Shown piece after piece: positions 1,448-35,330 of a stretch of DNA of 39,748 bases. Every line of letters begins with the position of its first letter. Position 1 is the first letter of the stretch. This DNA is from Deltaproteobacteria bacterium (GTDB taxonomy: Bacteria > Desulfobacterota > Binatia > UTPRO1). The stretch is from positions 1 to 39,748 of the forward strand of contig JAJCZP010000159.1 of assembly GCA_029262315.1 (NCBI GenBank), read 5' to 3'. The notes under the pieces were generated by a model that was not told the DNA's origin, did not search any database, and worked only from the letters and a program-made list of their open reading frames with translations. A program made the translations under genes and the position numbers.

Positions 1448-1466
1448 GAGGAGGGGCTCTCGGACC

Positions 1467-2756: not shown

Positions 2757-2772
2757 CCCCCTATTCGACCAA

Positions 2773-3468: not shown

Positions 3469-3542
3469 GGCCACGATCGGCGTGAAACGCGCACTTGCAT
3501 ACGGCGCCACTTGCATCGTGCCGCCGGGTGCGTCGTGCGAAT

Positions 3543-3574
3543 CTTCAACTCGCGAGAGCGGCGCCGACGCGCGC
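3543..3574. repeat. Copy of the 3' end of the acyl-CoA dehydrogenase gene (repeat copy 1)
   Basis: These 32 bases match 5116-5147 at 29 of 32 positions, with a 19-base exact core at 3549-3567. On the minus strand the segment reads A-R-V-G-A-A-L-A-S-stop, against A-R-L-G-A-A-L-A-S-stop at the end of the acyl-CoA dehydrogenase gene. It lies just after, and in frame with, the stop codon of the alpha/beta hydrolase gene (3578-3580). It looks like a recombination or deletion scar, though chance cannot be excluded. Confidence 0.5.
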
Positions 3575-3577
3575 CGA

Positions 3578-5115: not shown

Positions 5116-5147
5116 CTTCAGCTCGCGAGAGCGGCGCCGAGGCGGGC
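5116..5147. repeat. 3' end of acyl-CoA dehydrogenase gene (repeat copy 2, probable source)
   Basis: This segment includes the stop codon (5118-5120) and last residues of the acyl-CoA dehydrogenase at 5118-6236. It matches 3543-3574 at 29 of 32 bases in the same orientation. Because it belongs to an intact gene here, it is the more likely source of the pair. Confidence 0.5.
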
Positions 5148-6236
5148 GAGTTGCTCGCTCGCGGGACCGAGCATGAGCTCGATGTGCTTCGACCACAGGA
5201 AGTAGCGGTGCAGCGGGTAGTCGATGTCGACGCCGATCCCCCCGTGCAAATGCTGCGCGGCCACGGCAACGTGCTGCCCGCCTTCGGACGCCCAGAACTT
5301 TGCGACGATCACGGCCCGCTCGGCTACACCATCGCGCTCGAGTAGGAAAAGCGCCTCCTGCATCGAGAGCCGCATCGCTTCGAGATCGATGAACGCATCG
5401 GCGGCGCGCTGCTGCACGGCCTGAAACGTCGCGATCGGGCGATCGAACTGCTTGCGCTCCGTCGTGTACTCGGCCGTCAGTCGAAGAGCACGATCACACA
5501 CGCCGAACTGCTGGGCGCAGTATCCGGCGAGGGCACGCTCGTGCAGCCACCCGAGTACGCGCCGCCCCTCCTCACCTGGGACACCGATCGTCTCACCGTC
5601 GGCGACGACGACACCGTCGAGGGCGAGCCGGGCGTGGGGCTCGTTGTTGGTCGCAATCTGGCGTTCACGCGTGACGCCCGGGGCCGTTGGATCAACCAGG
5701 AAGACGCCCACACCGCCGTCGGCCAGCGTCGCCGACACCAGAATGGCGGTGGCGCGCTCGCCCGCCGACACGCAGATCTTCGTCCCGGACAGACGCCAGC
5801 CTGAGCCGTCCCGGGTGGCGATCGTCGTCGGGGAGAGCGGATCGCGTCCGTCGAGCTCGGCGAGCGCTGCCGTCAACACGGCCTCGCCGGAGACGACCCG
5901 CGGCAGCCACCGCTTCTTCTGCTCGGCGGAACCAAACGCGACCAGCGGAAGCGCACCGAGCACGGTCGACGCGAACACCGGCACCGGAGCAGCCGCACGT
6001 CCGACCTCCTCGAGCAACAGCCCGAGCTCGATCAGACCGAGCCCACTGCCGCCAAACTCTTCCGGCACCGCGATACCAAGCAGGCTCGCCTCCGCGAGCT
6101 TCCCCCACACGACATCGTCGAACCACTCGCCACTCTGCTCGAGCGCCCGCAGACGCTCTTGCGTCACGTGGTCTTTGAAGATCGAGCGCGCGAGCTCGCT
6201 CAGGGCCTGCTGCTCATCGCTGTAGGTAAAGTCCAC
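5118..6236 (-). CDS. Acyl-CoA dehydrogenase family protein (second subunit of a pair)
   Basis: A flavin enzyme of the acyl-CoA dehydrogenase superfamily, introducing a 2,3-double bond into an acyl-CoA and passing electrons to ETF. It has the N-terminal helical domain (FTYSDEQQALSELARSIF), the mid beta domain, and in the C-terminal domain TTERKQFDRPIATFQAVQQ, the usual FAD- and dimer-contact segment, followed by LHGGIGVDIDYPLHRYF. It ends (372 aa) without the usual YEGTxxIQ segment. The neighbour at 6246 has the opposite pattern, so the two probably form an alpha2-beta2 enzyme like the FadE26-FadE27 or FadE28-FadE29 pairs known from actinobacterial steroid side-chain oxidation. The start is GTG at 6236, preceded by GAGGA and 9 nt after the stop of the upstream gene. 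The substrate is not known. Confidence 0.92.
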   Translation of the reverse strand: MDFTYSDEQQALSELARSIFKDHVTQERLRALEQSGEWFDDVVWGKLAEASLLGIAVPEEFGGSGLGLIELGLLLEEVGRAAAPVPVFASTVLGALPLVAFGSAEQKKRWLPRVVSGEAVLTAALAELDGRDPLSPTTIATRDGSGWRLSGTKICVSAGERATAILVSATLADGGVGVFLVDPTAPGVTRERQIATNNEPHARLALDGVVVADGETIGVPGEEGRRVLGWLHERALAGYCAQQFGVCDRALRLTAEYTTERKQFDRPIATFQAVQQRAADAFIDLEAMRLSMQEALFLLERDGVAERAVIVAKFWASEGGQHVAVAAQHLHGGIGVDIDYPLHRYFLWSKHIELMLGPASEQLARLGAALAS

Positions 6237-6245
6237 GGGGAGTCC

Positions 6246-7418
6246 TCAGCGCGAGCGGGGCATGCCGAGCCCGGCCTGCGCAATGATCTCGCGCTGAATT
6301 TCGTTTGTCCCACCGCCGAACGTCAGCACGGGCGCATGGCCCCGGTAGAGACCTTCGGCGCGGCCACGCAGTCTCGCATCGGGGCTCCCCGCACGGAGTG
6401 TTCCCACCGCGCCCAATACCTCGAGGAGCAGCCGGTAGGCCTCGACGTAGAACTCGCTCCCGAACACCTTCACGACCGAGGCCTCGGCGTAGTTGAGCGT
6501 CCCCTTCGCGATGTTCCAGGCCTGCTTCCAGTTCGTCAGGCGGAGCACCTCGAGGTGGGCCTGAATGCGTGCGAGGTTCATCTGCACCCAGCCAATGTCG
6601 ATCACGCGCCCGCCTCCGGCCGGCGTGTCCTTCGCCCACTGCACGGTATCCTCGAACAGGTGTTCGACCATGCCGCACGTCATCAGCGACACGCGCTCGT
6701 AGTTGAGCTGCGTCACGATCAACCACCAGCCGCCGTTCTCCGGACCGATCAGGTGATCGGCCGGTACACGCACGTCCTCGTAGTACGTCGAGTTCGTCGC
6801 AAACGTCCCCATCGTCGGGAGTGGTGTGCATTTGTAGCCAGCGGCGGTCGTCGGAATCATGAATATCGAGAGACCCGAGTGCTTCTCGGCGTCGGGGTCG
6901 GTGCGCGCGGCTAGCCAAATGTAGTCCGCGTACTCGGCCTGACTCGTGTAGATCTTGGCGCCGTTGATCACCCACTCGTCGCCGTCCCGGACCGCGCGCG
7001 TGCGGAGCGAGGCGAGATCGGTCCCCGCCGACGGCTCGGTGTAGCCGATCGAGAAGTGCATCTGGCCCTTCAGGATCTTCGGCAGAATCGTCTGCTTCTG
7101 CTCGTCGTTCCCGTGCTCCATGATCGTCGGTGCGACGGCGTTCATGGTGAGGGTGGGAACAACGACGCCGGCGTAAATCGCTTCATCGAAAAAGATGAAC
7201 TGCTCGATCGCCGACCGCCCCTGGCCGCCGTATTCCTTCGGCCACCCGATACCGAGCCAACCGTCCGCCCCGAGTTGGCGCAGGACCTTGCCATAGAGGG
7301 GACCGCCACCCTCCCCGCCACTGATCTCGGCGAGGTACTCGGGGGTCGCGAGCTCGGCGAAGTAGCCGCGTAGCTCGCGCTTCAGCGCCTCCTGTTCAGA
7401 GGTGAGTGCGATTTCCAT
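6246..7418 (-). CDS. Acyl-CoA dehydrogenase (first subunit of a pair)
   Basis: A full-length (390 aa) acyl-CoA dehydrogenase. The N-terminal domain includes GWPKEYGGQG, the substrate and flavin loop is seen in GYTEPSAGTDLASLRTRA, and the beta domain contains INGAKIYTSQAEYADYIWL. Helix G carries LNYERVSL, whose Glu is at the catalytic-base position used by isovaleryl-CoA dehydrogenase. The MCAD-type base position reads GGGTNEIQR, so that Glu is missing. The usual RxxFxxPI flavin-contact segment is also absent (VQWAKDTPAGGGRV instead) but is present in the neighbour at 5118. This complementarity suggests an obligate heteromer. It follows the HdrD-like oxidoreductase by 51 nt, fitting an ETF-to-quinone chain. 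The substrate could be a branched, cyclic or steroid-type acyl-CoA. Confidence 0.94.
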   Translation of the reverse strand: MEIALTSEQEALKRELRGYFAELATPEYLAEISGGEGGGPLYGKVLRQLGADGWLGIGWPKEYGGQGRSAIEQFIFFDEAIYAGVVVPTLTMNAVAPTIMEHGNDEQKQTILPKILKGQMHFSIGYTEPSAGTDLASLRTRAVRDGDEWVINGAKIYTSQAEYADYIWLAARTDPDAEKHSGLSIFMIPTTAAGYKCTPLPTMGTFATNSTYYEDVRVPADHLIGPENGGWWLIVTQLNYERVSLMTCGMVEHLFEDTVQWAKDTPAGGGRVIDIGWVQMNLARIQAHLEVLRLTNWKQAWNIAKGTLNYAEASVVKVFGSEFYVEAYRLLLEVLGAVGTLRAGSPDARLRGRAEGLYRGHAPVLTFGGGTNEIQREIIAQAGLGMPRSR

Positions 7419-7469
7419 AGGGGGGGTATCTCTTCGGGGAATTGTCGGAACGGAACGCCCGGACCAGGA

Positions 7470-9566
7470 CTAGGTCAGTTGGCGCTCGATGATCTCCATG
7501 ACGTCGACCGCCTCGACCTTCTCCTCGAGGTCTTTGGCTTTGATGCCGTCGTTGATCATGGTCATGCAGTAGGGGCACGACATCGCGATCTTCTCGGGGC
7601 CGGTCTCGAGGGCCTGGTCGACCCGCAGCAGGTTAACCCGTTTGTCGGCGTCCTCCTCGATCCACATGCGACCACCGCCGGCGCCACAACACATGCCCGT
7701 GCGTCCGTGCCGCTCCATCTCCTGCGGCTCTTTCCCGGTCGCGGCTTGAATGACCTCGCGCGGGGCATCGTATACGTTGTTGAAGCGGCCGTAGTAGCAG
7801 GAATCGTGGTAGGTCACGACCTCGTAGCCATCACCATTCGGCTTGAGCCCGATCTTCTTCTCGTCGAGTAGCTCCTTAACCAGCTCGGCCGCGTGCACGC
7901 ACTCGTACTCGCCCCCGAACTGCGGCAGCTCGTTCTTGATCGTATTGAAACAGTGCGGGCAATTGACGATGACCTTCTTGTTCTTGATGCCGGCGGCGTC
8001 GAAGGTCTCGATCAGCATCTGCGCCATCGTCTGGTAGAGGTACTCGTTGCCGAGCCGGCGCGCGCTGTCGCCGTTGCAGAGCTCTTCCTTGCCGAGGATC
8101 GCGAAGTCGACGCCCGCCTTCATGAGGATCTTGGCGAAGGACACGGTCGTCTTCTTGTTGCGATCGTCGAACGCCCCCGCGCACCCGACGTAGTAGAGGT
8201 ACTCCGCGTCCGGCTTGTCCGCGATGCGAGGAATATCGAGATCGGCAGCCCAGTCGTCACGCTTCTCGGCGCCGATGCCCCATGGGTTCGACTGCGTTTC
8301 CAGCCCCTTGAACACGCGCGTCAACTCGGTCGGAAAGCGCGCCTCTTCCTGCACGAGGTGCCGGCGCATATCGGCGATCTTGTCGACGTACTCGATGTTG
8401 ACCGGGCATGCGTCCTCGCAGGCGCGGCACATGTTGCAGCTCCAGATGACATCGTCTGGCACCACACTGTCGGCCCCGACGACGTTCACCCCAACTTCGG
8501 GCGCCTCGGCGGCTTCGCCGTTGGCGCCGTTGGCCGCGGCGGCATGCTTCTCGATCACCTCGTCTTGATGCTCGTACAGGTAATCGCGGAGATTCAAGAG
8601 CATCTGGCGCGGCGCCAACGGCTTCCCGGTGGCCGTCGCGGGGCAGTTCGACGAGCAGCGACCGCACTCGGTGCAGGTGTACATGTCGAGCACCTGCTTC
8701 CAGGTGAACTGGTCGATGCGCGACGTCCCGAAGGTCTCGGCCGTCTCCAGTTCCTGCTTCGACAACGCACCCAGCGGCTCGAGCTTGCTGAAGAACACGT
8801 TCGGGAGCCCCGTGATGATGTGAAAATGCTTCGACAAGGGCAGGAGATTCACGAAGATCATGATGATGATGTTGTGGCCCCACCACCCGATCTCGGAGAC
8901 GATCCGCGCGTTCTCGGCACCGATCGGCTGGATCAGGGTCGAGAGCATGGAGGCGACCGGCACCCACGAACGTTCTGCCTCGACGGCCGGATCGCCGGCC
9001 GCGTAGATGAACCGACCGGCCTCGAAGAAGAGATCGGTGAGCATGATGCCACCGATGAAGCACAGAATGAGGATCGCCTCACCGTGCGATTGGCCGGCGA
9101 GCCGGGCCTCGGCGGGCTCGAAACCGTACAGGCGCTTCGGATGAATGAAGAGCCATCGGACGAGCGCGAACGCCACCGAGCAGATGACGACGACCTCTAT
9201 CAGGTCTTTCAGGAGCAGGTAGGGCCCGCCCAACATGTCGGCACCCATGAGTGGCAGGTGGAACTCGAGCCCGAACCAGCCCTGCCCGAAGGCTGTCACG
9301 ACGCGTAGGCCAAGGATCACGAAGCCCCAGAAGATGAAGAAATGCATCCAGCTGGGCGCCGGATCCTGCCGATCGACTACGAACTTCTTCTGCCCGAACC
9401 CATAGACCACGAGTTTGTTGATGCGCTCGGGGATCTTGTCGAACAGGTCCGTCCATGCAACGGACTGGAGGACGCGCAAGCGCCCATAGATGGTATTGGC
9501 AAAGTAGCCCACCGCCGCCACGAAGAGCACTGAATGGACGACGAATCTCGCGCCGATCTCTGGCAT
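7470..9566 (-). CDS. Membrane HdrD-like iron-sulfur oxidoreductase (probable ETF:quinone oxidoreductase)
   Basis: A 698-residue membrane-bound Fe-S protein. The N-terminal third has about six hydrophobic segments of the nitrate-reductase-gamma kind (for example FVVHSVLFVAAVGYFANTIYG, WMHFFIFWGFVILGLRVV, VVVICSVAFALVRWLF). Next come two 4Fe-4S motifs, CTECGRCSSNCP and CNMCRACEDACP, separated by an Ala/Gly/Asn-rich insert. Two CCG domains follow, with CNGDSARRLGNEY, CPHC, CCGAGGGRMW and CPYC, as in heterodisulfide reductase subunit D. Proteins of this build (FadF/EMO type) pass electrons from ETF to menaquinone. Its place directly before two acyl-CoA dehydrogenases supports that role. I chose ATG 9566 because a GGGAGG precedes it and it opens on a transmembrane helix; the frame continues 75 codons further upstream without protein-like content. 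Confidence 0.93.
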   Translation of the reverse strand: MPEIGARFVVHSVLFVAAVGYFANTIYGRLRVLQSVAWTDLFDKIPERINKLVVYGFGQKKFVVDRQDPAPSWMHFFIFWGFVILGLRVVTAFGQGWFGLEFHLPLMGADMLGGPYLLLKDLIEVVVICSVAFALVRWLFIHPKRLYGFEPAEARLAGQSHGEAILILCFIGGIMLTDLFFEAGRFIYAAGDPAVEAERSWVPVASMLSTLIQPIGAENARIVSEIGWWGHNIIIMIFVNLLPLSKHFHIITGLPNVFFSKLEPLGALSKQELETAETFGTSRIDQFTWKQVLDMYTCTECGRCSSNCPATATGKPLAPRQMLLNLRDYLYEHQDEVIEKHAAAANGANGEAAEAPEVGVNVVGADSVVPDDVIWSCNMCRACEDACPVNIEYVDKIADMRRHLVQEEARFPTELTRVFKGLETQSNPWGIGAEKRDDWAADLDIPRIADKPDAEYLYYVGCAGAFDDRNKKTTVSFAKILMKAGVDFAILGKEELCNGDSARRLGNEYLYQTMAQMLIETFDAAGIKNKKVIVNCPHCFNTIKNELPQFGGEYECVHAAELVKELLDEKKIGLKPNGDGYEVVTYHDSCYYGRFNNVYDAPREVIQAATGKEPQEMERHGRTGMCCGAGGGRMWIEEDADKRVNLLRVDQALETGPEKIAMSCPYCMTMINDGIKAKDLEEKVEAVDVMEIIERQLT

Positions 9567-9589
9567 TTGGCCTCCCGAGAGGTGATGAA

Positions 9590-9637
9590 TCCGCTCGAAG
9601 CGGACGCTTATGTAGTGTATCGAATGGGGACGTGCAA
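9590..9637 (-). promoter_or_regulatory. Candidate promoter and operator of the oxidoreductase-dehydrogenase operon
   Basis: On the minus strand TTGCAC (9637-9632) and TACATA (9614-9609) are separated by 17 nt and read toward the oxidoreductase gene. Just downstream is a perfect inverted repeat, TCCGCT-CGA-AGCGGA (9590-9604), where the transcript would begin. The same half-sites occur at the methylmalonyl-CoA decarboxylase promoter (10148-10175). The boxes are weak matches to the sigma-70 consensus. Confidence 0.4.
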
Positions 9638-9640
9638 GCA

Positions 9641-10120
9641 ATGAAGACCTGTGTTTCCAAGGCGTTAGTCTCCCTCGTGCTCCTCGCGGGGGTGATGGCG
9701 GAGGCCTGCGACTCCAACGCGGGAGGAGCCGAGGTGGTGCTGGAGACGTCGCACGGTCCCATGACCGTCCAGGTCGAGGTGGCCGACACACCCAGCGCGC
9801 GAAGCTTTGGGCTGATGTACCGACGAGAACTCGCCGCCGATGCGGGCATGTTCTTTCTCTTCGACGACATGCAGGATCGAAACTTCTGGATGAAGAACAC
9901 CGTCCTCCCCTTGGACATGATCTTCATCGATGACGCGCTCGAAATCGTGGGCATCGTCCACGACGCGGTCCCGTTCACCACGACGGCACGCGGGGTCGGT
10001 CGACCGTCGCGCTACGTCCTCGAGGTCAACGCGGGCTTCAGCGCCCAGCATGGCGTCCAGCCAGGCACACGGATCGAGGTCCGCGGCATCGGCGGGATTG
10101 CGCCCGCGCCGGGCGGCTGA
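9641..10120 (+). CDS. Exported DUF192 protein
   Basis: A 159-residue DUF192 protein of unknown function. The N-terminus looks like an export signal (VSKALVSLVLLAGVMAEAC); the Cys at about residue 23 could be lipidated, but the lipobox (AEAC) is poor. The family core is clear: FGLMYRRELAADAGMFFLF, then FWMKNTVLPLDMIFID, then a later GVGRPSRYVLEVNAG and GVQPGTRIEV. I chose ATG 9641 because it directly precedes the signal sequence; the frame is open further upstream but overlaps the divergent oxidoreductase gene. The 74-nt gap to that gene holds a candidate shared control site. Confidence 0.9.
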   Translation: MKTCVSKALVSLVLLAGVMAEACDSNAGGAEVVLETSHGPMTVQVEVADTPSARSFGLMYRRELAADAGMFFLFDDMQDRNFWMKNTVLPLDMIFIDDALEIVGIVHDAVPFTTTARGVGRPSRYVLEVNAGFSAQHGVQPGTRIEVRGIGGIAPAPGG

Positions 10121-21684: not shown

Positions 21685-25129
<3,445 letters not shown>

Positions 25130-25135
25130 GACCCG

Positions 25136-25417
25136 GTGGCCGATCTCCTCCGACTGCGGCTCCGCATCACCGGACGCGTGCAGGGCGTCTGGTACCGAGG
25201 CGCGACCGAACGCGAGGCACAGCGGCGCGGCGTCAACGGCTGGGTGCGCAATCTTCCCGATGGAAGCGTCGAGGCGCTGCTCGAAGGCGCCCCAGAGGCC
25301 GTCCGGGGCCTTGCGGCGTGGTGCCGAACGGGGCCATCGGGCGCACGCGTCGCGCAAGTCGTCGAGACACGGGAACCCGCCCGCGGCGACCTCGAGGACT
25401 TTACGACGACCTACTGA
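25136..25417 (+). CDS. acyP: Acylphosphatase
   Basis: A 93-residue acylphosphatase hydrolysing carboxyl-phosphate bonds. The signature GRVQGVWYRGATEREAQRRGVNGWVRNLPDGSVEAL is complete in meaning: the catalytic Arg is in WYRG and the catalytic Asn in WVRNLPDG. The start is GTG at 25136, 6 nt after the ligA stop, so it is most likely translated from the ligA transcript. It ends 9 nt from the end of the convergent large haem protein gene. Confidence 0.95.
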   Translation: MADLLRLRLRITGRVQGVWYRGATEREAQRRGVNGWVRNLPDGSVEALLEGAPEAVRGLAAWCRTGPSGARVAQVVETREPARGDLEDFTTTY

Positions 25418-25426
25418 GCGCGCGCC

Positions 25427-28400
25427 CTAGGGAATGCACTCGGCGGGATAGGCCTCGAACTCCGGCACCTGGGCGCGATCCATGCAGTCGACGTCGAACT
25501 CCGTGACACACGCCGTACAGCCCACCAAATCGGCCAAGGTCGAAACGGGACCGGCGCACCCGAGGCCCCCGTGCGGGATGATCAGGTCTGGACACGTGCC
25601 AACGAAACCGATCGCCGCGGGAGTGATGTCGTCGGTCCCACCGGTGCCGCCGACGACCGCACCGCTGGTCAGCGGAATGTCGTCGTCACAACCGCGATCA
25701 TCGCCACCGCAGCGCTTGCAGAGCTTGCTGACGAAGCTCGCCTCCGCCTTGCTGATCGCCACAGCCGTCTTCTGCGCTACCGAGCCCAACACCGCGAGCG
25801 GGTCTGGACACGTATCGCTGTGATTGCCCTTGAGCCGCTTGTCCCAGCATTTCTGGATCGCCTTCGACTTCTTGTCGAGAAACTTCCGGGATTCCTTCGC
25901 GATCGTGGCGTGGCACTTGTTCAGGTCATCGGTCACGACCGGCTCGACCAGATTGAACATCCCCGTCGTGACATCGATGTCGCGATCGACCGCGACATCG
26001 TGAACGCACTCCAGACAGGTCGCGATGTCGCCGCAATCGGTGATCGGATTGTCGCATGCGCCGCCTGTGATGTTCGGGCACGTGGCTGCCCAGCCGAGCA
26101 CGGCGGGGTGGTCCTCACTCGCATCGCCGTTGCAGATCTTGTCGTCACCGCCGCAGGCGTTGGCGATCCGTACGCCGAGCAGCATCCGCGCGGTCCCGAT
26201 CCGGGCCTCGGTCTTCAGCTCGGTCTGACAGTCGGTAGCAATCGGCAGCTTGCCTTTGATCTTGAATCCCTCACAGCGCGCCAGGTGCTTCGCCTTGGCC
26301 CGGGCGAATTTCCAGCCTTCCTTCTCGATCACCCGCTGGCACTTCACGCAGCCGGAATCACCGGGGCAGACATCGGGCACGCTGAAGGCATCCGCTGGAT
26401 CGGTACCGCCATCACGTTCGTCACCGTCGAGGAACCCGTCGCCGTCCTGATCGATACCGATACGGGGACCATCGCCCGGGGGCACTGCTGTGTAGGTGAG
26501 TTCCTGGCCAGCGACACCGGCGAGCGCACGGACGGTCGCATCCGCGACGGCACCCTCCGCCTCCCGATCCGTCGAGAACTGCCCGCCACCTGCGTACACG
26601 AAGGATTGATCCTCGCTTCCGAACCGCCCCTTCACGACGACATCGCACTCGCCCGCATCCGCCCGCGCCAGCAGGAGCGTGATTCGGGGATCCGTGGTCA
26701 CGCCGTTGCTGCTCGTGCGGGTGATCTGCTGCCCGACGATCGGAAACAGGTTCGTGTCGAAGGCTAGGGTAAACGCCTCGATGTCCCGCCGCAGCGGATC
26801 CCCCGGGGCACCGATGGGAATGCCATTGGGGTTCACACCGCCTTGATTGAACACCACCGCCGAGTGAAAGCGAAAGCTCGTGTCCGCACTGCCATCGTGC
26901 ATGAATCCGAACCCGCGCACCTGATCGCCCTTGTGCCCGTTGTCACCCGCATTGAAGAACGGCGCGGCCGCCATCCCGTACATGCCGACCTTCTGGTACA
27001 GATTGCGGAGGTGGGGGATCTTGAAGAGCTGAGGCTCTGGCTGGAACGCCCACTCGCCGTCGGTGCCAAAAAACCCTGGCTTGGCCACCCCGAACTCGGC
27101 GTTGCCGGCGCGATCGAGGGTATGACAGCCGACACACGAGCGCGCCGAGTCGGACACCGGACCCATGAAGAAGTCGTGCCCGCTCTGCTGCGACGCCGTG
27201 AGCGAGTTGTCGAGATTTCGGATCGGGTTCGGCGGATACATGATCTGCAGGATGAAGTCGGTGAACGCCTGCATGTCGTCGTCGGGAATCATGGTGCTCC
27301 GACCCACGAGCCCGGGGAAGGCGACGTCGAAATTCTTGAAGGCCTCGACCTCGTTGAAGGCACCCTCGTCCGGCTGCACGCCGCCGGGAGGCTCGACGTC
27401 GTTGCCGAACGTGCGATCTCCCCGCCAATGCAGCGCGCCGTGGTTCGCCATACCGCGGAAGCTCTGCACGGTCATCGGCCCCTTCATGGCGCGGAAGTCG
27501 GGGTTGCCGATCGGCCCGAACTCGTGCGGGCCGGGGTTCGTCTTCGTGGTGATGTCGGGATCGCCGAGATCCCACGCCAGGCTGTCGAAGTCGCCGAAGA
27601 CGTGACAGCTCGCGCACGACGAGTCGCCATGGCTCGACGCGAAGCTGGTGTCGTAGAAGAGCGGGCGCCCGAAAACGATGCTCGCCGGCTCCGGATTGTG
27701 TAGCGATTCGGCGTCGAGCTCGGCCCCCGTGCCGGTACTCAGGACCTTCACGGCATTGTCGAAGCGGGTCAACACGTAGAGCTGGCTGCGGCCCTCGTCG
27801 AGCACCATGCCCGTCGGTCCGCCGCCGGAGACGGCAATCTGATCGGCCGCGTCAGGCACGAAAGCATCGGTCTCGAGCTCGGTCGTGTCGTACACGCCGA
27901 TCTCGCTGGTGCCGAAGCCCGCCACGTAGAGCGTATCGCCGGTGCTGGTCACGGCCATACCGAGCGGGAAGGCAATGCTGTTGTCGTTCTCGACATTCGG
28001 GATCGGGTCACAACAGGTACTGTAGTCGATGTGCTTGTTCAGGTGGCGGGGAGTCACCGTCACGCCATCGAGGACGGTGATGCGACTTTCGTGCAGGTGC
28101 CCCTGGACCGTGGCTGGCTCGGCGATCGGCTTGAAACCCGCGGCGAAAATCCCCGGGCCCTCGAAGCGCACCCGGTTGAACGCCTCGGTATTCGAAACGT
28201 AGATCTTCCCGCTTGCCGGGTTGACGATCATGTTGAACAGGATCGTCCCGACACCGGCGAACACGCCGGTCGGCCCCGCGATCTGCGTCGGCGGTGCCCC
28301 GTTGGCGTTGATGGCGAAAACATCCTCGTCGGGCAGTGACAGTTTGACCGAGCTGCTCCAGTCACGCCCGAGCTCATCGAGCCAGGCGGCGCCGTCGAAC

Positions 28401-29194
28401 TGGACAATGAGGCCGGTCTCCGGTTGCGGGGTAAGATCGAAGCTCGTGTTTGGCTCGGGAAGACCGCCACCCCCTTCGCCGCCATCCGGAACGAGCCCCT
28501 CGGCAATGGTCGTTGTCCGATTGCCCGAGTGAAACGCCGCGGCGTACACGGTGCTGCCGTCATCGGTGACCGCCAAGGCCCGAGGCGTGTCGCTGAAGAG
28601 GTTCACGATCGTCAACGTGTCGCCGCCGAGAGACGTCCCGAGGCTCGTCGCGTCGAATACCCAGACATCCGCCAGCCCGGTCCCCGGCGTGGTGAGCTCG
28701 CTCGTGATCGTGGCGTGCAGTGGCGTGTTCTGCCCGCGATGAGCCGTCGTGATGAACGCGCGATCGAAACTCGCACCACCAAAGACGATATCCCGCGGCT
28801 CGTCTCCCACCAGGAGCGTCCGGACGACACGGGCCGTCGCCGGATCCGAGACATCGACGATGCTCACACTGTCCGACAGATGATTGACGACCCACACTTC
28901 GGTGTTGGTGCGCGCCGCAACGGCAACCGGCTCGAGTCCGACCGGTACCGACACGACATGGGTGAGGCCGCCCACGGCGACGTCGAACACTTCGAGGCGG
29001 TTGTCAGGCGTGCTGACGGCGAACAGCTGGGCCCCGTCCGGCGACAAGGCAAGCGGTCGCACCTGCCCGCTCTCGAAGAGGGTGAACGGTGTGGCCGCAT
29101 GCGCCTGCCCGAAGGTCAGCAGGCACAAAACGGTGGCCACGAGCAGGGTCGAGACTGCGTCGATCGAGTTGCTCGGAGTCTGGCGGGAGATCAG
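25427..29194 (-). CDS. Exported beta-propeller/di-haem peroxidase-like fusion with Cys-rich C-terminal modules
   Basis: A very large exported protein (1255 aa from this start). After a signal peptide (AVSTLLVATVLCLLTFGQAHA) come YVTN-type beta-propeller repeats to about residue 500. A cytochrome c peroxidase/MauG-like part has two haem motifs, CASCH (about 526) and CVGCH (about 685), and possible Met ligands in GMYGMAAAPFF. A calcium-type loop, DQDGDGFLDGDERDGGTDP, lies about 910. Residues about 948-1255 hold two Cys-rich modules with KC, CGGDD, TCP and CxxC in the same order. The start appears to be CTG at 29194, with AGGAGGAGG 6 nt upstream; the open frame continues to an ATG at 29398 but that part is not protein-like. 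The redox substrate is unknown. It is convergent with acyP and divergent from the RND operon. Confidence 0.82.
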   Translation of the reverse strand: MISRQTPSNSIDAVSTLLVATVLCLLTFGQAHAATPFTLFESGQVRPLALSPDGAQLFAVSTPDNRLEVFDVAVGGLTHVVSVPVGLEPVAVAARTNTEVWVVNHLSDSVSIVDVSDPATARVVRTLLVGDEPRDIVFGGASFDRAFITTAHRGQNTPLHATITSELTTPGTGLADVWVFDATSLGTSLGGDTLTIVNLFSDTPRALAVTDDGSTVYAAAFHSGNRTTTIAEGLVPDGGEGGGGLPEPNTSFDLTPQPETGLIVQFDGAAWLDELGRDWSSSVKLSLPDEDVFAINANGAPPTQIAGPTGVFAGVGTILFNMIVNPASGKIYVSNTEAFNRVRFEGPGIFAAGFKPIAEPATVQGHLHESRITVLDGVTVTPRHLNKHIDYSTCCDPIPNVENDNSIAFPLGMAVTSTGDTLYVAGFGTSEIGVYDTTELETDAFVPDAADQIAVSGGGPTGMVLDEGRSQLYVLTRFDNAVKVLSTGTGAELDAESLHNPEPASIVFGRPLFYDTSFASSHGDSSCASCHVFGDFDSLAWDLGDPDITTKTNPGPHEFGPIGNPDFRAMKGPMTVQSFRGMANHGALHWRGDRTFGNDVEPPGGVQPDEGAFNEVEAFKNFDVAFPGLVGRSTMIPDDDMQAFTDFILQIMYPPNPIRNLDNSLTASQQSGHDFFMGPVSDSARSCVGCHTLDRAGNAEFGVAKPGFFGTDGEWAFQPEPQLFKIPHLRNLYQKVGMYGMAAAPFFNAGDNGHKGDQVRGFGFMHDGSADTSFRFHSAVVFNQGGVNPNGIPIGAPGDPLRRDIEAFTLAFDTNLFPIVGQQITRTSSNGVTTDPRITLLLARADAGECDVVVKGRFGSEDQSFVYAGGGQFSTDREAEGAVADATVRALAGVAGQELTYTAVPPGDGPRIGIDQDGDGFLDGDERDGGTDPADAFSVPDVCPGDSGCVKCQRVIEKEGWKFARAKAKHLARCEGFKIKGKLPIATDCQTELKTEARIGTARMLLGVRIANACGGDDKICNGDASEDHPAVLGWAATCPNITGGACDNPITDCGDIATCLECVHDVAVDRDIDVTTGMFNLVEPVVTDDLNKCHATIAKESRKFLDKKSKAIQKCWDKRLKGNHSDTCPDPLAVLGSVAQKTAVAISKAEASFVSKLCKRCGGDDRGCDDDIPLTSGAVVGGTGGTDDITPAAIGFVGTCPDLIIPHGGLGCAGPVSTLADLVGCTACVTEFDVDCMDRAQVPEFEAYPAECIP

Positions 29195-29200
29195 GGGGAG

Positions 29201-29209
29201 CCTCCTCCT
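29201..29209 (-). promoter_or_regulatory. Ribosome binding site that supports a CTG start
   Basis: On the minus strand the sequence is AGGAGGAGG, one of the strongest Shine-Dalgarno matches in the window, 6 nt before the in-frame CTG at 29194. No ATG, GTG or TTG in this frame sits at a suitable distance. The encoded product from CTG begins directly with a normal signal peptide. Confidence 0.6.
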
Positions 29210-29252
29210 AAGATACGCTGGGCACGCTAAGCACGCTGGCGAACCGACGGTC

Positions 29253-29273
29253 CTGCATGTGGTACGCATGCAG
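29253..29273. repeat. Inverted repeat in the divergent region before the haem and RND genes
   Basis: CTGCATG (29253-29259) and CATGCAG (29267-29273) form a perfect inverted repeat with a 7-nt centre. It lies in the 261-nt gap between the two divergent genes, which also holds a direct repeat of GCACGCT (29222, 29231). It is a candidate binding site for a regulator of one or both genes. I cannot place a convincing promoter in this gap. Confidence 0.35.
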
Positions 29274-29455
29274 CCCGTGGGCACCGGTTGGCCAGGTATG
29301 CACGTGCTTAACACAGAATGGGCCCAGAACAACAGGAATTTCTGCGGTTTGGGCGCTCTTGTGGGCATCTCGGATCCAGAGCATGAATGGGCCTGCATGA
29401 CCGCGAGAATCGGCCGAATATCCGGTCCGTACGGGCTTTCCGACGGGCCAGCGAC

Positions 29456-32400
29456 ATGAAACTCGTCCGCTTCGCCCTGTCGAACCCCTACACCGTCATC
29501 GTAGTCGTACTAGTGGTCGTAGTGCTGGGGATCACCTGTATCGGCCGGATGCCGGTCGACATGCTGCCCCAGTTCGAGACGCCCGCCGTCCAGGTCGTGA
29601 CCTTCTACCCGGGCATGCCCGCCCTGGTCATGGAGAAGGACATCACGAGCCGGATCGAGCGCTGGACCGGGCAATCGGTCGGCATCGCACGTCAGGAGTC
29701 GCGGTCGATGATCGGCGTCTCGATCGTGAAAGACTTCTTTCACGAGGGAATCGATCCCGCATCGGCCATCGCGCAGGTGAGTTCGTACGCGATGTCCGAC
29801 CTCTTCTACCTGCCACCCGGGACCATCCCTCCCATGGTCATGCCGTTCGATCCCACCGCCAGCGTCCCGCTGGCGTTGATCACCGTCTCGAGTCCGAAGT
29901 TCGACGAGACCAAACTCTACGACATCGCCTACTTCGAACTCCGGAACCGGCTGCAGGGCATTCCCGGCGTCATCGCCCCGGCGGTGTACGGTGGCAAGCT
30001 GCGGCGCATCCTCGCGTACATCGATCCGCACAAGCTGGAGGCCCGGGGACTCGCGCCCACCGATGTCGTCCGGACGCTGCGTGACTTCAGCACGTTGATC
30101 CCCACTGGCTCGGCCAAACTCGGCGATCTCGACTACCAGGTCATCACCAACGGCATGCCGGAACATGTCGAGGAGATGAACGACTTCCCGATCCGCATCG
30201 AGAACGGGGTTCCGGTCTTCATTCGGGACGTCGCCGAGGTGAAGGACACGCATCAGATTCAGTCCAACATCGTGCGGATCAGCGCTCCGCCCGACATGCA
30301 GGGCAAGCGCCAGGTGTATATTCCGATCTACCGACAACCGGGCGCGAACACGATCGCGGTCGTGGATGGCATCCGGAGCGCGCTCGCCGGCATCCTCGAA
30401 CGCCTGCCAGAGAGCATCGGTCTGGGCGTCGTCATGGACCAGTCGGTGTACGTCCGACGCGCCATCAAAAATCTCGTCAACGAAGGGATCCTCGGTGCCG
30501 CTCTGGCGGCGATGATGATCCTCCTCTTCATCGGCGACTTTCGCGCCACACTCATCACGGTCATCGCCATACCGCTGTCGATCCTGGCCGCGTTCATCGG
30601 TCTCTACTTCACCGGCAACTCGATCAACGCCATGACTCTCGGCGGACTGGCGCTCGCCGTCGGTCGACTGGTCGACGATGCCATCGTGGTGATCGAGAAT
30701 ACGGATCGCCACGTCGCCAACGGCTCCACGCCCGCCCAGGCGGCGCTCGAAGCTCCTGCTGAAGTCGCGATGCCCGTCCTCGCCGCCACCCTCACCACCA
30801 TCATCGTCTTCTTTCCGGTGGTGTTCCTCACGGGGATCGGGAAGTTCCTGTTCACGCCACTCGCGCTCACCGTCGCGTTCGCCATCGTGGCGTCGTACCT
30901 GGTCGCCATGACGGTCGTTCCGGTGTACTGCGCGCGCTTTCTGGGCCAGGACCGGCACACCGATGGGCGACGAGGAGGGCTCGCACGCTTCAACGCTGGC
31001 GTGGAACGCGTCCGCACGCGCTACAGACGGGCGCTCCGTGGAGCCATGCGTCGCCCGGCCCCCGTGCTCCTCGGCGTCGCCATCGCCTTCGTGGTCGCGC
31101 TCGGCGCTGGGCAGTTCATCGGCACGGACCTCTTTCCCGAGGTCGATGCCGGGCAGTTCTCGGTACGCATGCGCGCGGCAAGCGGCACCCGCATCGAGCG
31201 CACCGAAGCGCTCGTCGCCGAGGTCGAAGAGATTCTGAAGGACACGATCCCCGCGGACGATCTCCAGATGATCATCGGCAACGCGGGCGTCCTCCTCGAC
31301 TGGCCGGCCGCGTACACGCCGAACGGAGGCGCGCAGGACGCATTTCTCGAGGTCCAACTCACCGAAGACCGCGGTCGTTCGGCGCAGGAGTACGCTGCCA
31401 CCCTGCGCCCGGTGCTGCGCGAGCGCCTCCCGCACGTCGAGTTCTCCATCCACACGGGCGGCATGGTCACCGCGGCCTTAAACGGCGGCCTCCCCTCCCC
31501 CATCGACATTCAGGTCACGGGAAACTCCCTCGAGGTGGCGCACGGTGTCGCGACGCGGATTCGCGCCGCGATCGTCGACGTCCCCGGCGCCGTCGACGTT
31601 CGCGTCCAGCAGCGACTCGACTATCCCGCGATCAAGGTCAACGTCGATCGCGTTCGCGCCGCACATCTCGGCCTCACGCCCGCACATGTCGTGAAAAACA
31701 TCGTCACGAGCCTGAACTCGTCGATCAACTTCGACCCGGCGTTCTGGATCGACGAGTCGAACGGCAACCACTACTTTCTCGGTGCGCAGTACCCCGAAGA
31801 GCTGATCGAGTCGCTCGACACCCTGAAGAACATTCCCATTACCAGCAGCCGCGAAGGCCGCTTCGACCCGGTGCCAGCGCGCGGGCGCACGGGCATGAGC
31901 GGCACGAGCCCGATCCGCCGTACGCTGCTCAAAAACCTGGCGACCTTCGAACACACGACCGCACCGACCGAAATCAACCATCTCAACATCAGCCGGGTGA
32001 TCGACGTGTATGCCAACGTCGCGTCCCGTGACGTTGGCAGCGTCGCCGCCGACATCGAGCAGCGCCTGGCCCCTATCGAAGCGGATCTCCCCGCGGGATA
32101 CTCGATCGCCATCCGCGGCGAGGTCCAAAGCATGCGCGAATCCTTCGCCGGCTTACGCTTCGGCTTCCTCCTCGCGAGCGCGCTGGTGTACTTGATCATG
32201 GTCGCGCAGTTCCGCTCCTTCCTCGACCCATTCGTCGTCATGTTCGCCGTACCGCTCGGCCTGATCGGCGTGGTCGCGATCCTGTTGCTCACGGGCAGTA
32301 CACTGAACGTCCAATCGTTCATGGGGGTGATCTTCATGGTCGGCATCGCCGTTTCCAACTCGGTCCTACTCGTCGAGTTCGCCAACCGCCTGCGGGCCGA

Positions 32401-32650
32401 CGGGCGGTCCCTGGAAGAGGCCGCCATCGAGGCCGCCGAGGTCCGGTTCCGGCCGATCATCATGACGTCGCTGGCCGCCATTCTCGGGTTGCTCCCGATG
32501 GCCATCGGCTTCGGTCATGGCAGTGAGGCCAACGTGCCCCTGGCACGAGCAGTCGTTGGTGGGCTCGCCGTCTCGACCGTGCTCACGCTGTTCGTCGTAC
32601 CCATTCTGTACCGCGCACTGAAGCAACGCGGAGAAGGAGTCACGGGATGA
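29456..32650 (+). CDS. RND-family efflux permease (HAE1 type)
   Basis: The inner-membrane pump of a tripartite efflux system, driven by proton (or possibly sodium) entry. At 1064 aa it has the two-fold repeated build with TM1 near residues 12-30, a large periplasmic porter loop, and TM2-6. GRLVDDAIVVIEN in TM4 has the paired Asp residues needed for proton relay. The second half repeats this, with GVIFMVGIAVSNSVLLVEFANRLR in TM10-11 and MTSLAAILGLLPMAIGFGHGSE near the end. Porter segments such as YDIAYFELRNRLQGIPGV are typical. I chose ATG 29456 because it opens on the standard MKLVRFALSNPYTV start; residues upstream in frame are not conserved in appearance. The next gene overlaps by 4 nt. The substrate is unknown. 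Confidence 0.94.
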   Translation: MKLVRFALSNPYTVIVVVLVVVVLGITCIGRMPVDMLPQFETPAVQVVTFYPGMPALVMEKDITSRIERWTGQSVGIARQESRSMIGVSIVKDFFHEGIDPASAIAQVSSYAMSDLFYLPPGTIPPMVMPFDPTASVPLALITVSSPKFDETKLYDIAYFELRNRLQGIPGVIAPAVYGGKLRRILAYIDPHKLEARGLAPTDVVRTLRDFSTLIPTGSAKLGDLDYQVITNGMPEHVEEMNDFPIRIENGVPVFIRDVAEVKDTHQIQSNIVRISAPPDMQGKRQVYIPIYRQPGANTIAVVDGIRSALAGILERLPESIGLGVVMDQSVYVRRAIKNLVNEGILGAALAAMMILLFIGDFRATLITVIAIPLSILAAFIGLYFTGNSINAMTLGGLALAVGRLVDDAIVVIENTDRHVANGSTPAQAALEAPAEVAMPVLAATLTTIIVFFPVVFLTGIGKFLFTPLALTVAFAIVASYLVAMTVVPVYCARFLGQDRHTDGRRGGLARFNAGVERVRTRYRRALRGAMRRPAPVLLGVAIAFVVALGAGQFIGTDLFPEVDAGQFSVRMRAASGTRIERTEALVAEVEEILKDTIPADDLQMIIGNAGVLLDWPAAYTPNGGAQDAFLEVQLTEDRGRSAQEYAATLRPVLRERLPHVEFSIHTGGMVTAALNGGLPSPIDIQVTGNSLEVAHGVATRIRAAIVDVPGAVDVRVQQRLDYPAIKVNVDRVRAAHLGLTPAHVVKNIVTSLNSSINFDPAFWIDESNGNHYFLGAQYPEELIESLDTLKNIPITSSREGRFDPVPARGRTGMSGTSPIRRTLLKNLATFEHTTAPTEINHLNISRVIDVYANVASRDVGSVAADIEQRLAPIEADLPAGYSIAIRGEVQSMRESFAGLRFGFLLASALVYLIMVAQFRSFLDPFVVMFAVPLGLIGVVAILLLTGSTLNVQSFMGVIFMVGIAVSNSVLLVEFANRLRADGRSLEEAAIEAAEVRFRPIIMTSLAAILGLLPMAIGFGHGSEANVPLARAVVGGLAVSTVLTLFVVPILYRALKQRGEGVTG

Positions 32651-33852
32651 CGAGAACCGCGCACGGCGTCGAGCCGGCTCATGGCGTCCTGTCCAGGATG
32701 CTTCGCCGCAGCACGCAAGGGGCACTGCTGCTCACCGCCGCGGCAGTCCTGGCGGCGTGCACGTCGCCGGGCGAACGCACCGCCTCGCCAGCGGCCGCCG
32801 TCTCGGCACCCGTGATCCACGCCGAGCGGAACGCCATGGCGCGCACCGTATCGCTCGCCGCCAACGTCGAGGCCTACGAACAAGCGCCCCTGTACGCCAA
32901 GGTGCCCGGCTACGTCGCCACCATCAACGTCGACATCGGCGATGTGGTCGTCGAAGACCAGCTGCTCGCGACCCTGGAAATGCCAGAGATGGCGCACCAG
33001 TACGCACAGGCGGAGAGCCACCGCATCGAACAACGCGCCGCACTGGCGAGTGCCCGCGCGGAAGCCGAACTCCAAGAACGCCTGATGAAACGAAGCGTCG
33101 GCCTCCGGGCAAAGGACGCCATCAGCGAAGAAGACCTGGAGCAGGCGCGCGCGGGCGCCGCCAAAGCCCGCGCGGAGCTGGCACTGGCCGACGCGCGCAC
33201 GACGACCGTCGAAGCCCGACTGAAGGAACTCGAAGCGTTCATGGGATACGGCGAGCTCCGTGCCCCCTTCGCTGGCATCATCACCAAGCGCTTCGTCGAT
33301 CGCGGCGCGCTCGTCCAGGCGGCAACTTCGAGCAGCGACGTCCGGCCGGTCGTCGTCGTCGCTCGGGTCGATCAGCTCCGCATCTCGGTCGACGTCCCCG
33401 AACCGGACGTTCCACTGGTCGACGTGGGAGACCCAGCCGCCCTCACGATTGCCGCCCTGCCCGATCGTACCTTCACGAGCACGGTGGCCCGCATCGCCGG
33501 CGCTCTCGATCCGCGATCACGCACCATGCGGGCAGAGGTCGATCTGCCAAACACAGATGGCATACTCCGCTCTGGGATGTACGGCACACTCACGATCGAC
33601 GTCGAGACGGTAGCCGACGCGCTGACGTTGCCTACCGCCGCCGTCAACCAGGGTCGCAAAGGCGCATCGGTGTTCGTGCTCGACGGTGACGTGGCGCGTC
33701 AACGCCCCGTCACCGTCGGCCTCGCCGACGACGACCGCCTGCAGATCCTCGCCGGGATCTCGACCGCGGACGAGGTCGTCGGGACGACGGCCGGAATCGC
33801 CGACGGGACGCGCATCCAGCGGCGAACGACCGACAAGGCGCTCGCGCCGTGA
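32647..33852 (+). CDS. RND efflux periplasmic adaptor lipoprotein
   Basis: The membrane-fusion subunit joining the RND pump to the outer-membrane channel. A lipobox LAAC (Cys about 38) anchors it to the inner membrane. Domains are the expected ones: lipoyl half (VPGYVATINVDIGDVVVEDQLLATLEMPEM), a long helical hairpin rich in Ala/Glu/Arg (about residues 115-200), the second lipoyl half (YGELRAPFAGIITKRFVDRGALV), and beta-barrel and membrane-proximal parts ending VVGTTAGIADGTRI. The ATG overlaps the pump stop (ATGA) and is preceded by GAAGGAG, which fixes this start over the ATG 17 codons later. The TolC-like gene also overlaps its end. Confidence 0.94.
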   Translation: MTRTAHGVEPAHGVLSRMLRRSTQGALLLTAAAVLAACTSPGERTASPAAAVSAPVIHAERNAMARTVSLAANVEAYEQAPLYAKVPGYVATINVDIGDVVVEDQLLATLEMPEMAHQYAQAESHRIEQRAALASARAEAELQERLMKRSVGLRAKDAISEEDLEQARAGAAKARAELALADARTTTVEARLKELEAFMGYGELRAPFAGIITKRFVDRGALVQAATSSSDVRPVVVVARVDQLRISVDVPEPDVPLVDVGDPAALTIAALPDRTFTSTVARIAGALDPRSRTMRAEVDLPNTDGILRSGMYGTLTIDVETVADALTLPTAAVNQGRKGASVFVLDGDVARQRPVTVGLADDDRLQILAGISTADEVVGTTAGIADGTRIQRRTTDKALAP

Positions 33853-35330
33853 ACCTCGCCGCACTCCGACTGCTGGCCATGGTCGTCGCGCTGCTCCTCG
33901 CCGCGGAGCGAGCCCCCGCCGAGGACTCGACACAGCACGCGACCCCAGAGCCGGCGCCTGCCGCGACGCTCGCGACAGCGATCGGCGCGCCAGCCACGGA
34001 CGCGGACGCGAGCCCAAGCATCACCTTGGCGCCGGTGAAGATGCGCCTCATTGAAACGGGGCGCTCGCTCCCGATCGACCTCCCGACCGTCATCCGCCTG
34101 GCCGAAGCCAACAGCCTCGACATCCTCGAGGCGCACGCACGCCGCGACGAGGCGCACGGCCGCAGGAATGAAGCGCTGGGCGCCCTCCTTCCCGAGGTCA
34201 CCGGAACGTTCCGCGCGCGCAAAATCGACGGCATGATTCAAGCGTCGTTCGGGCAACGCGACCGTGCAACCTTCAGCACGCTGAATCCTGCCGTCGGTGT
34301 CCAGCTCGAGCTGAACCCCGCCGAGGCGCTGTTCGATGCGCTCGCCGCGCATCGCGCACTTGACGCCGCCGAGCACGAGAGTGGGCGCGCGCACCAGGAC
34401 GTCCTGGCACTCGCCACGCGGCAGTACTTCGGCCTACTCGCCGGACACGCACAAGTGCGGATCGCCGAGCAGACCCTCGAAGCGTCTCGCGAGCTGGCAC
34501 GCATCGGCCGAGACCGTACCAGCGTCGGCGCTGGTTTGAAGGTAGACGTGCTCCGCGCCGAGGCGCGCGAGGGCGCGACCGCGGTCCGACTCGTGGAAGC
34601 ACAGCGGATGCTCCGGCGAGCGTCGTTGGCGCTCGCGCTCACCCTCCAGCTGGATCCCTCGGTGACGCTCTTCCCCGCCGAAACGGTCGTGCGGCAACGT
34701 ACCCTGATCGACCCGGCGTTGCCGCTCGACGATCTCATCGAGCGCGCCCGCACGGCGCGCCCGGTCGCCAACGCCGAAGGCCAGCGACTGACCGCCGCCG
34801 AGCACGAGAAGAGCGCGAGTCTTGCCGAAGCACTCGGCCCGACGGTGTTCGGATCGTTCGAGGAAAGCGCAATCGGACGCAGTACGGGCGACCTCGACAA
34901 CCGGCAGATCTACGGCGGGTTCATCGGCCTCACGCTGTCTCCCTCGTCCATCGGACGGGTCCAGGCCGCCGACGCTCGGGTCGAGCAAGCACGGCTCGCG
35001 CAGACCCGCGTCGAGCGCCGTATCGCCGTCGAAGTCATCTCGGCCCGTGACGACGTCCTCACCGCGCAGGAACAGATTGCCGCCGCCATGCGCGGCCTGC
35101 GCGCCGCGGAGGCCGCCCTCGACCTCAGTCAGGTGCGCTTCAAGGGCGGCGTCGGCATCGGCCTCGAAGTGCTCGACGCCGAGGCCGCTCTGAGCGAAGC
35201 GCGCACGAATCTCGTCACCGCCATCCTTGCCTACGACACCTCGGAGATCGCGCTGCTGCACGCGGTAGGCAGTGTTTCGGCCTCGAGCCTTCTCGCGGGA
35301 GTCGCGACGCCCGATGGAGCACAGCCCTAA
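33849..35330 (+). CDS. TolC-family outer-membrane channel
   Basis: The outer-membrane exit duct of the same pump. It starts at GTG 33849, overlapping the adaptor stop by 4 nt. A signal peptide (LRLLAMVVALLLAAERAPA) is followed by about 60 poorly ordered residues. Then come two long-helix repeats of the outer-membrane efflux protein family: the first begins IDLPTVIRLAEANSLDILEAHARRDEAHGRR, and the second SAAEHEKSA-type helices lead to QVRFKGGVGIGLEVLDAEAALSEARTNLV near the C-terminus. Length (493 aa) is normal. The extra N-terminal stretch is a little longer than in most relatives. Confidence 0.92.
   Translation: MNLAALRLLAMVVALLLAAERAPAEDSTQHATPEPAPAATLATAIGAPATDADASPSITLAPVKMRLIETGRSLPIDLPTVIRLAEANSLDILEAHARRDEAHGRRNEALGALLPEVTGTFRARKIDGMIQASFGQRDRATFSTLNPAVGVQLELNPAEALFDALAAHRALDAAEHESGRAHQDVLALATRQYFGLLAGHAQVRIAEQTLEASRELARIGRDRTSVGAGLKVDVLRAEAREGATAVRLVEAQRMLRRASLALALTLQLDPSVTLFPAETVVRQRTLIDPALPLDDLIERARTARPVANAEGQRLTAAEHEKSASLAEALGPTVFGSFEESAIGRSTGDLDNRQIYGGFIGLTLSPSSIGRVQAADARVEQARLAQTRVERRIAVEVISARDDVLTAQEQIAAAMRGLRAAEAALDLSQVRFKGGVGIGLEVLDAEAALSEARTNLVTAILAYDTSEIALLHAVGSVSASSLLAGVATPDGAQP

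Follow-up and report, generated by a model that had tools for sequence, protein, structure and literature searches.

A fused beta-propeller and di-haem protein of hydrazine synthase beta-gamma layout, possibly a secreted oxidase, with a cysteine-rich tail in a Binatia bacterium

Introduction

In classical di-haem cytochrome c peroxidases (CCP) a methionine is the distal ligand of haem 2, in MauG a tyrosine stands at the same place, and RoxA and RoxB are di-haem enzymes that cleave polymers. In hydrazine synthase (HZS), subunits beta and gamma (HzsB and HzsC; PDB 5c2v/5c2w, NCBIfam NF052342) present a propeller followed by a di-haem unit, and in Candidatus Scalindua japonica the two are fused. 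Here, we analyse a gene of the same layout on the minus strand (positions 25427-29194) of a 39,748-nucleotide contig from a deltaproteobacterium of the class Binatia (GenBank assembly GCA_029262315.1, contig JAJCZP010000159.1), which encodes a protein of 1255 residues, P0001. The whole stretch of DNA is referred to as the window and P0001 as the window protein.

A recent paper (Hagglund et al. 2025, PMC12758564, December 2025) states that HZS was long believed to be without relatives and reports a very high prevalence of distant homologues of fused beta-gamma among environmental bacteria. The present study adds to this a well-bounded family without an alpha partner, residue tests, evidence for an integral propeller and a Cys-rich module. 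Our literature search found no paper on a fusion of a YVTN propeller with either a cytochrome c peroxidase or MauG.

Results

Domain order and distribution of the family

The window protein is composed of a propeller, a di-haem unit, a small alpha/beta domain, a calcium-type loop and a Cys-rich tail of 311 residues (Table 1). The reading that we favour, with roughly even confidence, is that of a secreted di-haem oxidase of which the propeller is an integral part. The portion in front of the tail, hereafter the core, does not represent a chance architecture, since at least 580 relatives were confirmed in one scan and the core was retrieved at E 1e-100 or better from 48 of 118 genomes of the class, with a highest copy number of at least seven per genome. 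According to record titles, it is also present in Sorangium, Polyangium, Myxococcus, Corallococcus, Nannocystis and other myxobacteria as well as in Acidobacteriota and gammaproteobacteria including Methylococcales, and the family is common among soil and groundwater bacteria. One locus of the class (L095) has several neighbouring genes in common with loci from records titled Candidatus Binatia and HR30 (L142 and L143).

Conservation was assessed in 119 homologues, made up of the 40 sequences of alignment A1 and 79 sequences from L101-L180, the 80 top-scoring loci among at least 580 matches. A1 contains the window protein and 39 sequences (identity 41-70%): of 45 core open reading frames (ORFs), the duplicates L001 and L029 and the two halves of the stop-split copy L065 were left unused, and two of the 41 that were extracted, one bearing a long insert and the other a masked stretch, were omitted. 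The 82 homologues in L101-L180 were reduced by two duplicates and one truncated sequence. Profile alignment A4 comprises 40 members and covers the di-haem part, and A6 served as the combined alignment of the di-haem part and the tail.

A putative di-haem unit of the CCP type

The original prediction, made from the DNA sequence, had described two CxxCH motifs about 160 residues apart in a CCP/MauG-like context behind a YVTN-type propeller, and these observations hold. The first begins at residue 527 and the second at residue 687, a spacing of exactly 160. The Pfam model CCP_MauG (PF03150) gives a weak match (E 1.3e-4; 23.1 and 24.0 bits, below the gathering cut-off of 25.6) and reaches E 0.001 in 8 of 40 core members, but hhalign aligns the di-haem profile with the bacterial CCP 3o5c over 192 columns with a probability of 95.9%. 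Both CxxCH motifs as well as the LRN and HDG motifs are matched in this alignment, and W590 is paired with the tryptophan of the FWDGRA motif, which suggests that both CxxCH motifs sit in one CCP-type unit. A PDB search with the single sequence returned the HzsC chain (E 5e-6), and the top three matches of profile A4 were 5c2v_C (HzsC, 1.4e-8), 6e1c_A (3.2e-5), a chain named 'Di-heme enzyme' that we take to be MbnH, and 3o5c_A (0.0019). The HWRG motif, both CxxCH motifs, W541, Q577, Q758 and Y733 are invariant in all 119 homologues, and in 117 of them, including the window protein, no cysteine is located between the haem motifs. The original prediction had named a placement of the two CxxCH motifs in unrelated folds as the outcome that would speak against it; sequence comparison puts both into one unit, which answers this check in part.

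Several observations weigh against an oxidase with an integral propeller. The HMMER alignment with 3o5c leaves the two tryptophans unpaired; we prefer the hhalign version because the same 13-residue spacing from a conserved stretch to the tryptophan is seen by eye in both sequences. At the place of the second-haem methionine of CCP, 14 residues after the histidine of HDG (spacing taken from 3o5c), methionine is present in only two of the 119 homologues and tyrosine or histidine in none, and the window protein has a valine; even between positions +12 and +16, any of the three residues occurs in just nine homologues. These counts suggest that the family is without a common CCP- or MauG-type ligand at that place. 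In the vicinity of the distal-histidine region of CCP, as judged by spacing, residue 568 is a histidine in 94 of 119 sequences but an arginine in the window protein, so that this copy may differ from the family. Parts of the di-haem stretch have pLDDT values of only 45-75 in the first structural model, and in the second the di-haem part stays below 50. Furthermore, the conservation values are overstated, as the sample consists of the closest relatives (one class plus the 80 top-scoring loci among at least 580 matches), and the conservation of the propeller described below could stem from an interface alone.

Other residues may serve haem 2. Y733 (119/119) and M738 (108/119) are candidate ligands, and a histidine is present 11 residues after that of HDG in 28 of 119 homologues (His 777 in the window protein). 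The fold-match lists of the first model were filled by propellers and contained neither RoxA nor MauG nor any other di-haem chain, an absence that is no test of relationship.

A simple peroxide-removing CCP, in which a small cytochrome would feed electrons into haem 2, haem 1 would reduce peroxide, and propeller and tail would only position the enzyme outside the cell, could account for the alignment of the di-haem part with bacterial CCP and for the retained tryptophan. It is harder to reconcile with the scarcity of methionine at the second-haem position and with a propeller whose conservation is similar to that of the haem part; moreover, the genome already has CCP_MauG genes of its own (C265 and C144), and a copy number that reaches at least seven in a genome is high for a detoxifying enzyme. 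We consider this explanation unlikely.

The propeller as a probable part of the catalytic unit

In the AlphaFold model of the 922-residue core (mean pLDDT 83.9, pTM 0.91), the strands form seven blades by visual count, and the YVTN repeats exceed their cut-off (TIGR02276, 34.6 versus 27.85 bits). The best PDB chain for this model is 5c2v_B, the beta subunit of HZS (Z 36.7, rmsd 2.4, 318 residues aligned), and the next chain reaches Z 33.5.

Among the 119 homologues, the share of the commonest residue averages 0.70 over the propeller positions and 0.65 over those of the di-haem part, and 77 of 463 propeller positions (17%) compared with 63 of 324 positions in the di-haem part (19%) are conserved to at least 97%. 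This near-equal conservation makes it probable that the propeller is part of the catalytic unit and does not serve to bind varied polymers. Polar propeller residues such as N104, D108, T126, D131, D135, D202, D273, D289, D291, N386 and H388 are conserved at 1.00 (rounded) and speak for a role in catalysis or in a fixed interface; R153 and Q155 are further conserved residues of the propeller.

These values also bear on the possibility that the protein is an extracellular di-haem dioxygenase that cleaves polymers as RoxA and RoxB do, with tail and propeller binding the polymer. Such an enzyme would be in line with the exported type of the protein, its size and the varied C-terminal cassettes of the family. 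Substrate-binding parts would hardly be as invariant as the propeller and the haem part are, and the tails vary or are missing, so that we regard a polymer-cleaving function as very improbable. The earlier suggestion that the extra parts act on a large or polymeric substrate is weakened by the same conservation and by the tail-less homologues described below.

Partner genes and the comparison with MauG and MbnH

A MauG- or MbnH-like enzyme would oxidise a residue of a partner protein (e.g., tryptophan to kynurenine or to a quinone cofactor) and use the propeller as a docking platform. In its favour, 6e1c is the second match of the di-haem profile, and the methylamine dehydrogenase light chain (PF02975) is encoded in 17 of 24 core-bearing but only 1 of 14 core-less related genomes (both 17, core only 7, light chain only 1, neither 13; Fisher p 1.7e-4, uncorrected for kinship). 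In one of these genomes (L223, G035:C97), the light chain gene lies about 5.6 kb from a core gene. On the other hand, seven of the 24 core-bearing relatives are without PF02975, the position of the MauG tyrosine ligand is not occupied by tyrosine in any homologue, and MbnP is encoded in only 6 of the 38 relatives and is absent from the genome studied here. When the 864 ORFs of at least 150 residues within 6 kb of the core were clustered, no fixed partner gene was found in 116 loci: the largest family was present in 16 of the 116 at a median distance of 2.4 kb (clusters were judged by the number of loci they touched). Weighing both sides, we hold a partner-modifying function to be rather unlikely.

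The core was also considered as a substitute for MauG in the maturation of methylamine dehydrogenase. PF03150 itself is matched in all 18 relatives with PF02975 (17 at E <1e-40, G020 at only 4.8e-7), so that no substitute for MauG is needed. Of the 12 of 18 mau loci that were scanned (about 8 kb on each side where possible), one (L225) contained a WDGR-type di-haem ORF and one (L223) the core. As the co-occurrence is, in addition, uncorrected for kinship, this idea was set aside as a weak lead.

Relationship to hydrazine synthase

The HZS beta-gamma model NF052342 matches the window protein with E 9.1e-13 and 47.2 bits and stays far below its cut-off of 1250, a comparison with the cut-off that was seen for the window protein only. 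Among 40 core sequences, the HZS beta model matched 40 and the beta-gamma model 37 at E 1e-5 (best 5.2e-19). The original prediction had known of no function for the combination of domains; this has to be revised in so far as fused HZS beta-gamma has the same order and matches nearly all of these cores. The PQQ-associated propeller model (40 of 40) and the YVTN repeat (38 of 40) were retrieved from the same sequences, indicating that part of the signal of the HZS models reflects general propeller likeness.

HZS gamma is reported to have a third haem-binding cysteine (gamma Cys165, haem gamma I), and its His144 to stand where CCP and MauG have a tryptophan (PMC12758564). In all 119 homologues, W590 is found in place of His144, the equivalence of the two positions being that given in the same paper, and in 117 of them there is no cysteine between the haems for a third thioether bond. 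With the tryptophan present and the third cysteine missing, the window protein appears to be of the CCP/MauG type at these positions and fails two tested features of HZS.

A search with five alpha-type proteins against 8,508 ORFs from 123 loci for an alpha subunit beside the core gave two weak matches, both of them core ORFs, and no core gene was found beside the five alpha-type loci examined. Genes with an HZS_alpha domain are present in 9 of 38 relatives (this genome and eight others), compared with the core in 24 of 38. The genome itself has a single one, an ORF with two CxxCH motifs at 3-3575 on the minus strand of another contig (L213, G000:C190), away from the core.

An HZS-like enzyme of nitrogen oxide metabolism that converts NO to hydroxylamine, as has been proposed for the HZS gamma subunit, would explain why HZS beta is the closest propeller fold and HzsC the best di-haem match, and why a WDLG stretch after haem 1 is common to HzsC and the window protein. 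Given the tryptophan at the position named gamma His144 in PMC12758564, the missing third cysteine, and an HZS_alpha gene that is located on a different contig and belongs to a domain rarer than the core, we see little chance for this function.

The tail is a separate, lineage-specific module

The tail had been described as a Cys-rich stretch of 300 residues, and the count bears this out: the last 315 residues of P0001 contain 24 cysteines, about 22 of them in the module itself (25430-26374). The module consists of two tandem repeats, each about 150 residues long; in alignment A2, for which 20 of the 30 carriers other than the window protein passed the length filter, 17 positions are invariant in 21 copies, and 14 of these are cysteines. 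Its model is helical and mostly confident, with few pLDDT blocks below the range listed in Table 1 and a minimum of 64. Foldseek returned no match for this fold at E 0.001, the tail found no match among PDB sequences, and the only two matches in Pfam were at chance level (E 0.025 and 0.088). A PhoU-like chain was rejected as the tail fold, as its Z score of 8.5 went along with an rmsd of 5.2 over 198 residues, values that helical bundles reach by chance.

In the examined loci of this genome, 31 ORFs bear the module, 29 of which are not cores (L186-L212). In some of these it stands by itself behind a signal-like start; in others it lies close to the N-terminus, internally, or at the C-terminal end, where Pro/Thr-rich linkers precede it. 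Pfam domains found on the 29 ORFs, in one or two ORFs each, include trypsin, sulfatase, lysyl oxidase, PQQ, SGL, NHL, beta-helix and FG-GAP, a set that is typical of exported proteins. We found no paper on cysteine-rich extracellular proteins of Binatia.

The same search that detected the module in 41 of the 118 genomes of the class at E 1e-10, and thereby provided a positive control, found it in none of 15 core-bearing genomes of other groups (the completeness of which is unstated), which argues for a lineage-specific module outside the enzyme. Among cores, it is strong only on the window gene and its sister on contig C152; one further copy among 127 core ORFs (some of them duplicated), L180 from a Binatia record, has a weak match (E 1.4e-5). 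The window and C152 copies are sisters in the tree of 119 sequences (support 0.998), and their next relatives bear other tails. The tail is dispensable, since all 35 sequences from records of myxobacterial genera stop within 40 residues of the core end. In gammaproteobacterial records (n=17), seven sequences have at most 40 residues past the core, three have 41-90 and seven have more than 90; one of nine sequences with Binatia- or Binatota-type titles ends early, and the 40 class sequences continue for more than 90 residues (36) or for 41-90 (4). Taken together, sequence comparison indicates that the Cys-rich tail is a lineage-specific module separate from the enzyme.

The C-termini that follow the calcium-type loop in L082-L100 and L160-L172 are swapped: they include beta-rich domains with a near-terminal cysteine, CGDG-type Cys-rich repeats, EF-hand or dockerin-like ends, and Pro/Thr linkers. 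The labels 'dockerin-like' and 'DUF4215-like', used for some of these tails, go by motif patterns only.

Calcium-type loop and small alpha/beta domain

The calcium-type loop that had been predicted is partly supported: the match with TSP3_bac (PF18884; E 0.0017, 18.6 bits) is below the cut-off of 25 bits, but D915, D917 and D919 are conserved at 97-99% in the 119 homologues. The small alpha/beta domain in front of it (here residues 818-907, 26474-26743) shows in the model a weak likeness to a portion of cysteine protease chains of the SpeB type (Z 6.4-6.6, 79 residues), which may reflect a common arrangement only.

Translation start, export and flanking genes

From its first ATG, the ORF extends from 29398 to 25427 on the minus strand (1323 residues). 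CTG at 29194 is the probable start codon; the first in-frame ATG is located about 200 bases upstream, and no ATG was found near the good ribosome-binding site listed in Table 1. A start at this CTG, which was also assumed in the original prediction, is plausible. The start resembles a signal peptide, as expected for the exported type of protein that had been proposed. A rough pattern for lipoprotein starts was positive in 12 of the 127 core ORFs, six of which (L121, L138, L145, L148, L153 and L172) are convincing by eye, so some family members are probably membrane-anchored.

Table 1. Predicted features of the window gene and its product
Feature	Residues	Position in the window	Strand	Basis or remark
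Ribosome-binding site, AGGAGGAGG		29201..29209	-	Six bases before the CTG taken as start; sequence
Probable signal peptide	1-33	29096..29194	-	Begins with CTG; hydrophobic stretch ending GQAHA, judged by eye
Seven-bladed beta-propeller	37-499	27698..29086	-	AlphaFold model and best chain 5c2v_B
Di-haem unit, CCP/MauG type	500-823	26726..27697	-	Profile A4 and hhalign
First CxxCH, haem 1	C527, C530, H531	27602..27616	-	119/119 homologues
HWRG motif	589-592	27419..27430	-	119/119 homologues; W590 pairs with Trp of FWDGRA (hhalign)
Second CxxCH, haem 2	C687, C690, H691	27122..27136	-	119/119 homologues
Small alpha/beta domain	824-908	26471..26725	-	Secondary structure of the model
TSP3-like calcium-type loop	909-938	26381..26470	-	Enzyme end in myxobacterial homologues
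Cys-rich module, repeat A	947-1088	25931..26356	-	Alignment A2; helical model, pLDDT blocks mostly 86-98
Cys-rich module, repeat B	1089-1255	25430..25930	-	Alignment A2; model

The window gene stands alone, convergent with genes for DNA ligase and acylphosphatase and divergent from an efflux operon of the RND type. The NAD-dependent DNA ligase and the directly following acylphosphatase gene (25136-25417, PF00708, 2.1e-23) occupy 23036-25417. The RND operon (29387-35327) encodes an AcrB-type pump, an HlyD-type adaptor and an outer-membrane OEP protein and shares the upstream region 29195-29386 with the gene studied here. Further away (5121-9791), a gene for a protein with 4Fe-4S and cysteine-rich CCG domains adjoins two acyl-CoA dehydrogenase genes.

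Discussion

Possible mode of action

As we infer the chemistry and the direction of electron flow, haem 1 would activate peroxide or oxygen, W590 would relay oxidising equivalents between the haems, and electrons would be exchanged between haem 2 and a donor or substrate. The propeller would pack on the di-haem unit, line the route to it and form part of the site, so that a single conserved type of molecule or group would probably be the substrate. The calcium loop would close the enzyme, and the Cys-rich tail, probably a disulfide-rich exported module, would place it at the surface or in the matrix and take no part in the chemistry.

A wider proposal, which we put forward tentatively and which is doubtful as a whole, would combine four points. 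The propeller and the di-haem unit would together make up a self-sufficient oxidase of ancient origin, with part of its active site contributed by the propeller. Enzymes of this class would be widespread in myxobacteria, Binatota, Acidobacteriota and gammaproteobacteria and distinct from CCP, MauG and HZS. They would have their own second-haem ligand and represent the type of enzyme that was recruited for HZS beta-gamma in the evolution of anammox. Finally, in Binatia they would have been multiplied and fitted with swappable exported modules.

Comparison with known systems

The likeness to the bacterial CCP 3o5c comprises both haem motifs, the FWDGRA tryptophan and the LRN and HDG motifs; the differences are a second-haem methionine position that is not kept, the propeller in front, and an insertion between LRN and HDG. 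With MauG and MbnH (6e1c, which we presume to be MbnH), the first-haem region aligns, whereas the window protein is much longer, no fixed partner gene was found for the family and tyrosine never occupies the MauG-type tyrosine position. By the usual second-haem ligand position, the window protein is no textbook CCP or MauG. The YVTN surface-layer propeller (PDB 1l0q) has similar repeats (Z 33.5) but no haem part, while the propeller of the window family has many invariant polar residues.

HZS beta-gamma is the best match of both the propeller fold and the di-haem sequence; beyond the residues at the haems, the window protein differs from it by the extra C-terminal domain, the calcium loop and the tail. 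Closest in description are the fused HZS beta-gamma homologues from outside anammox bacteria, clades I-IV (Hagglund et al. 2025, PMC12758564), which likewise join propeller and di-haem unit. Clades I-III are reported there to keep the conserved tryptophan, as does the window family. All four clades were chosen for a neighbouring alpha-type gene, which the window gene does not have, and clade I carries extra N-terminal haem motifs that are lacking in the window protein; the clades are compared here by their description only. A large family with the layout of HZS beta-gamma and CCP-type residues, present in cultured myxobacteria, offers a testable comparison for the origin of HZS and the function of the fusion, and its Cys-rich module adds an unnamed domain that is found on about 30 proteins of a single genome.

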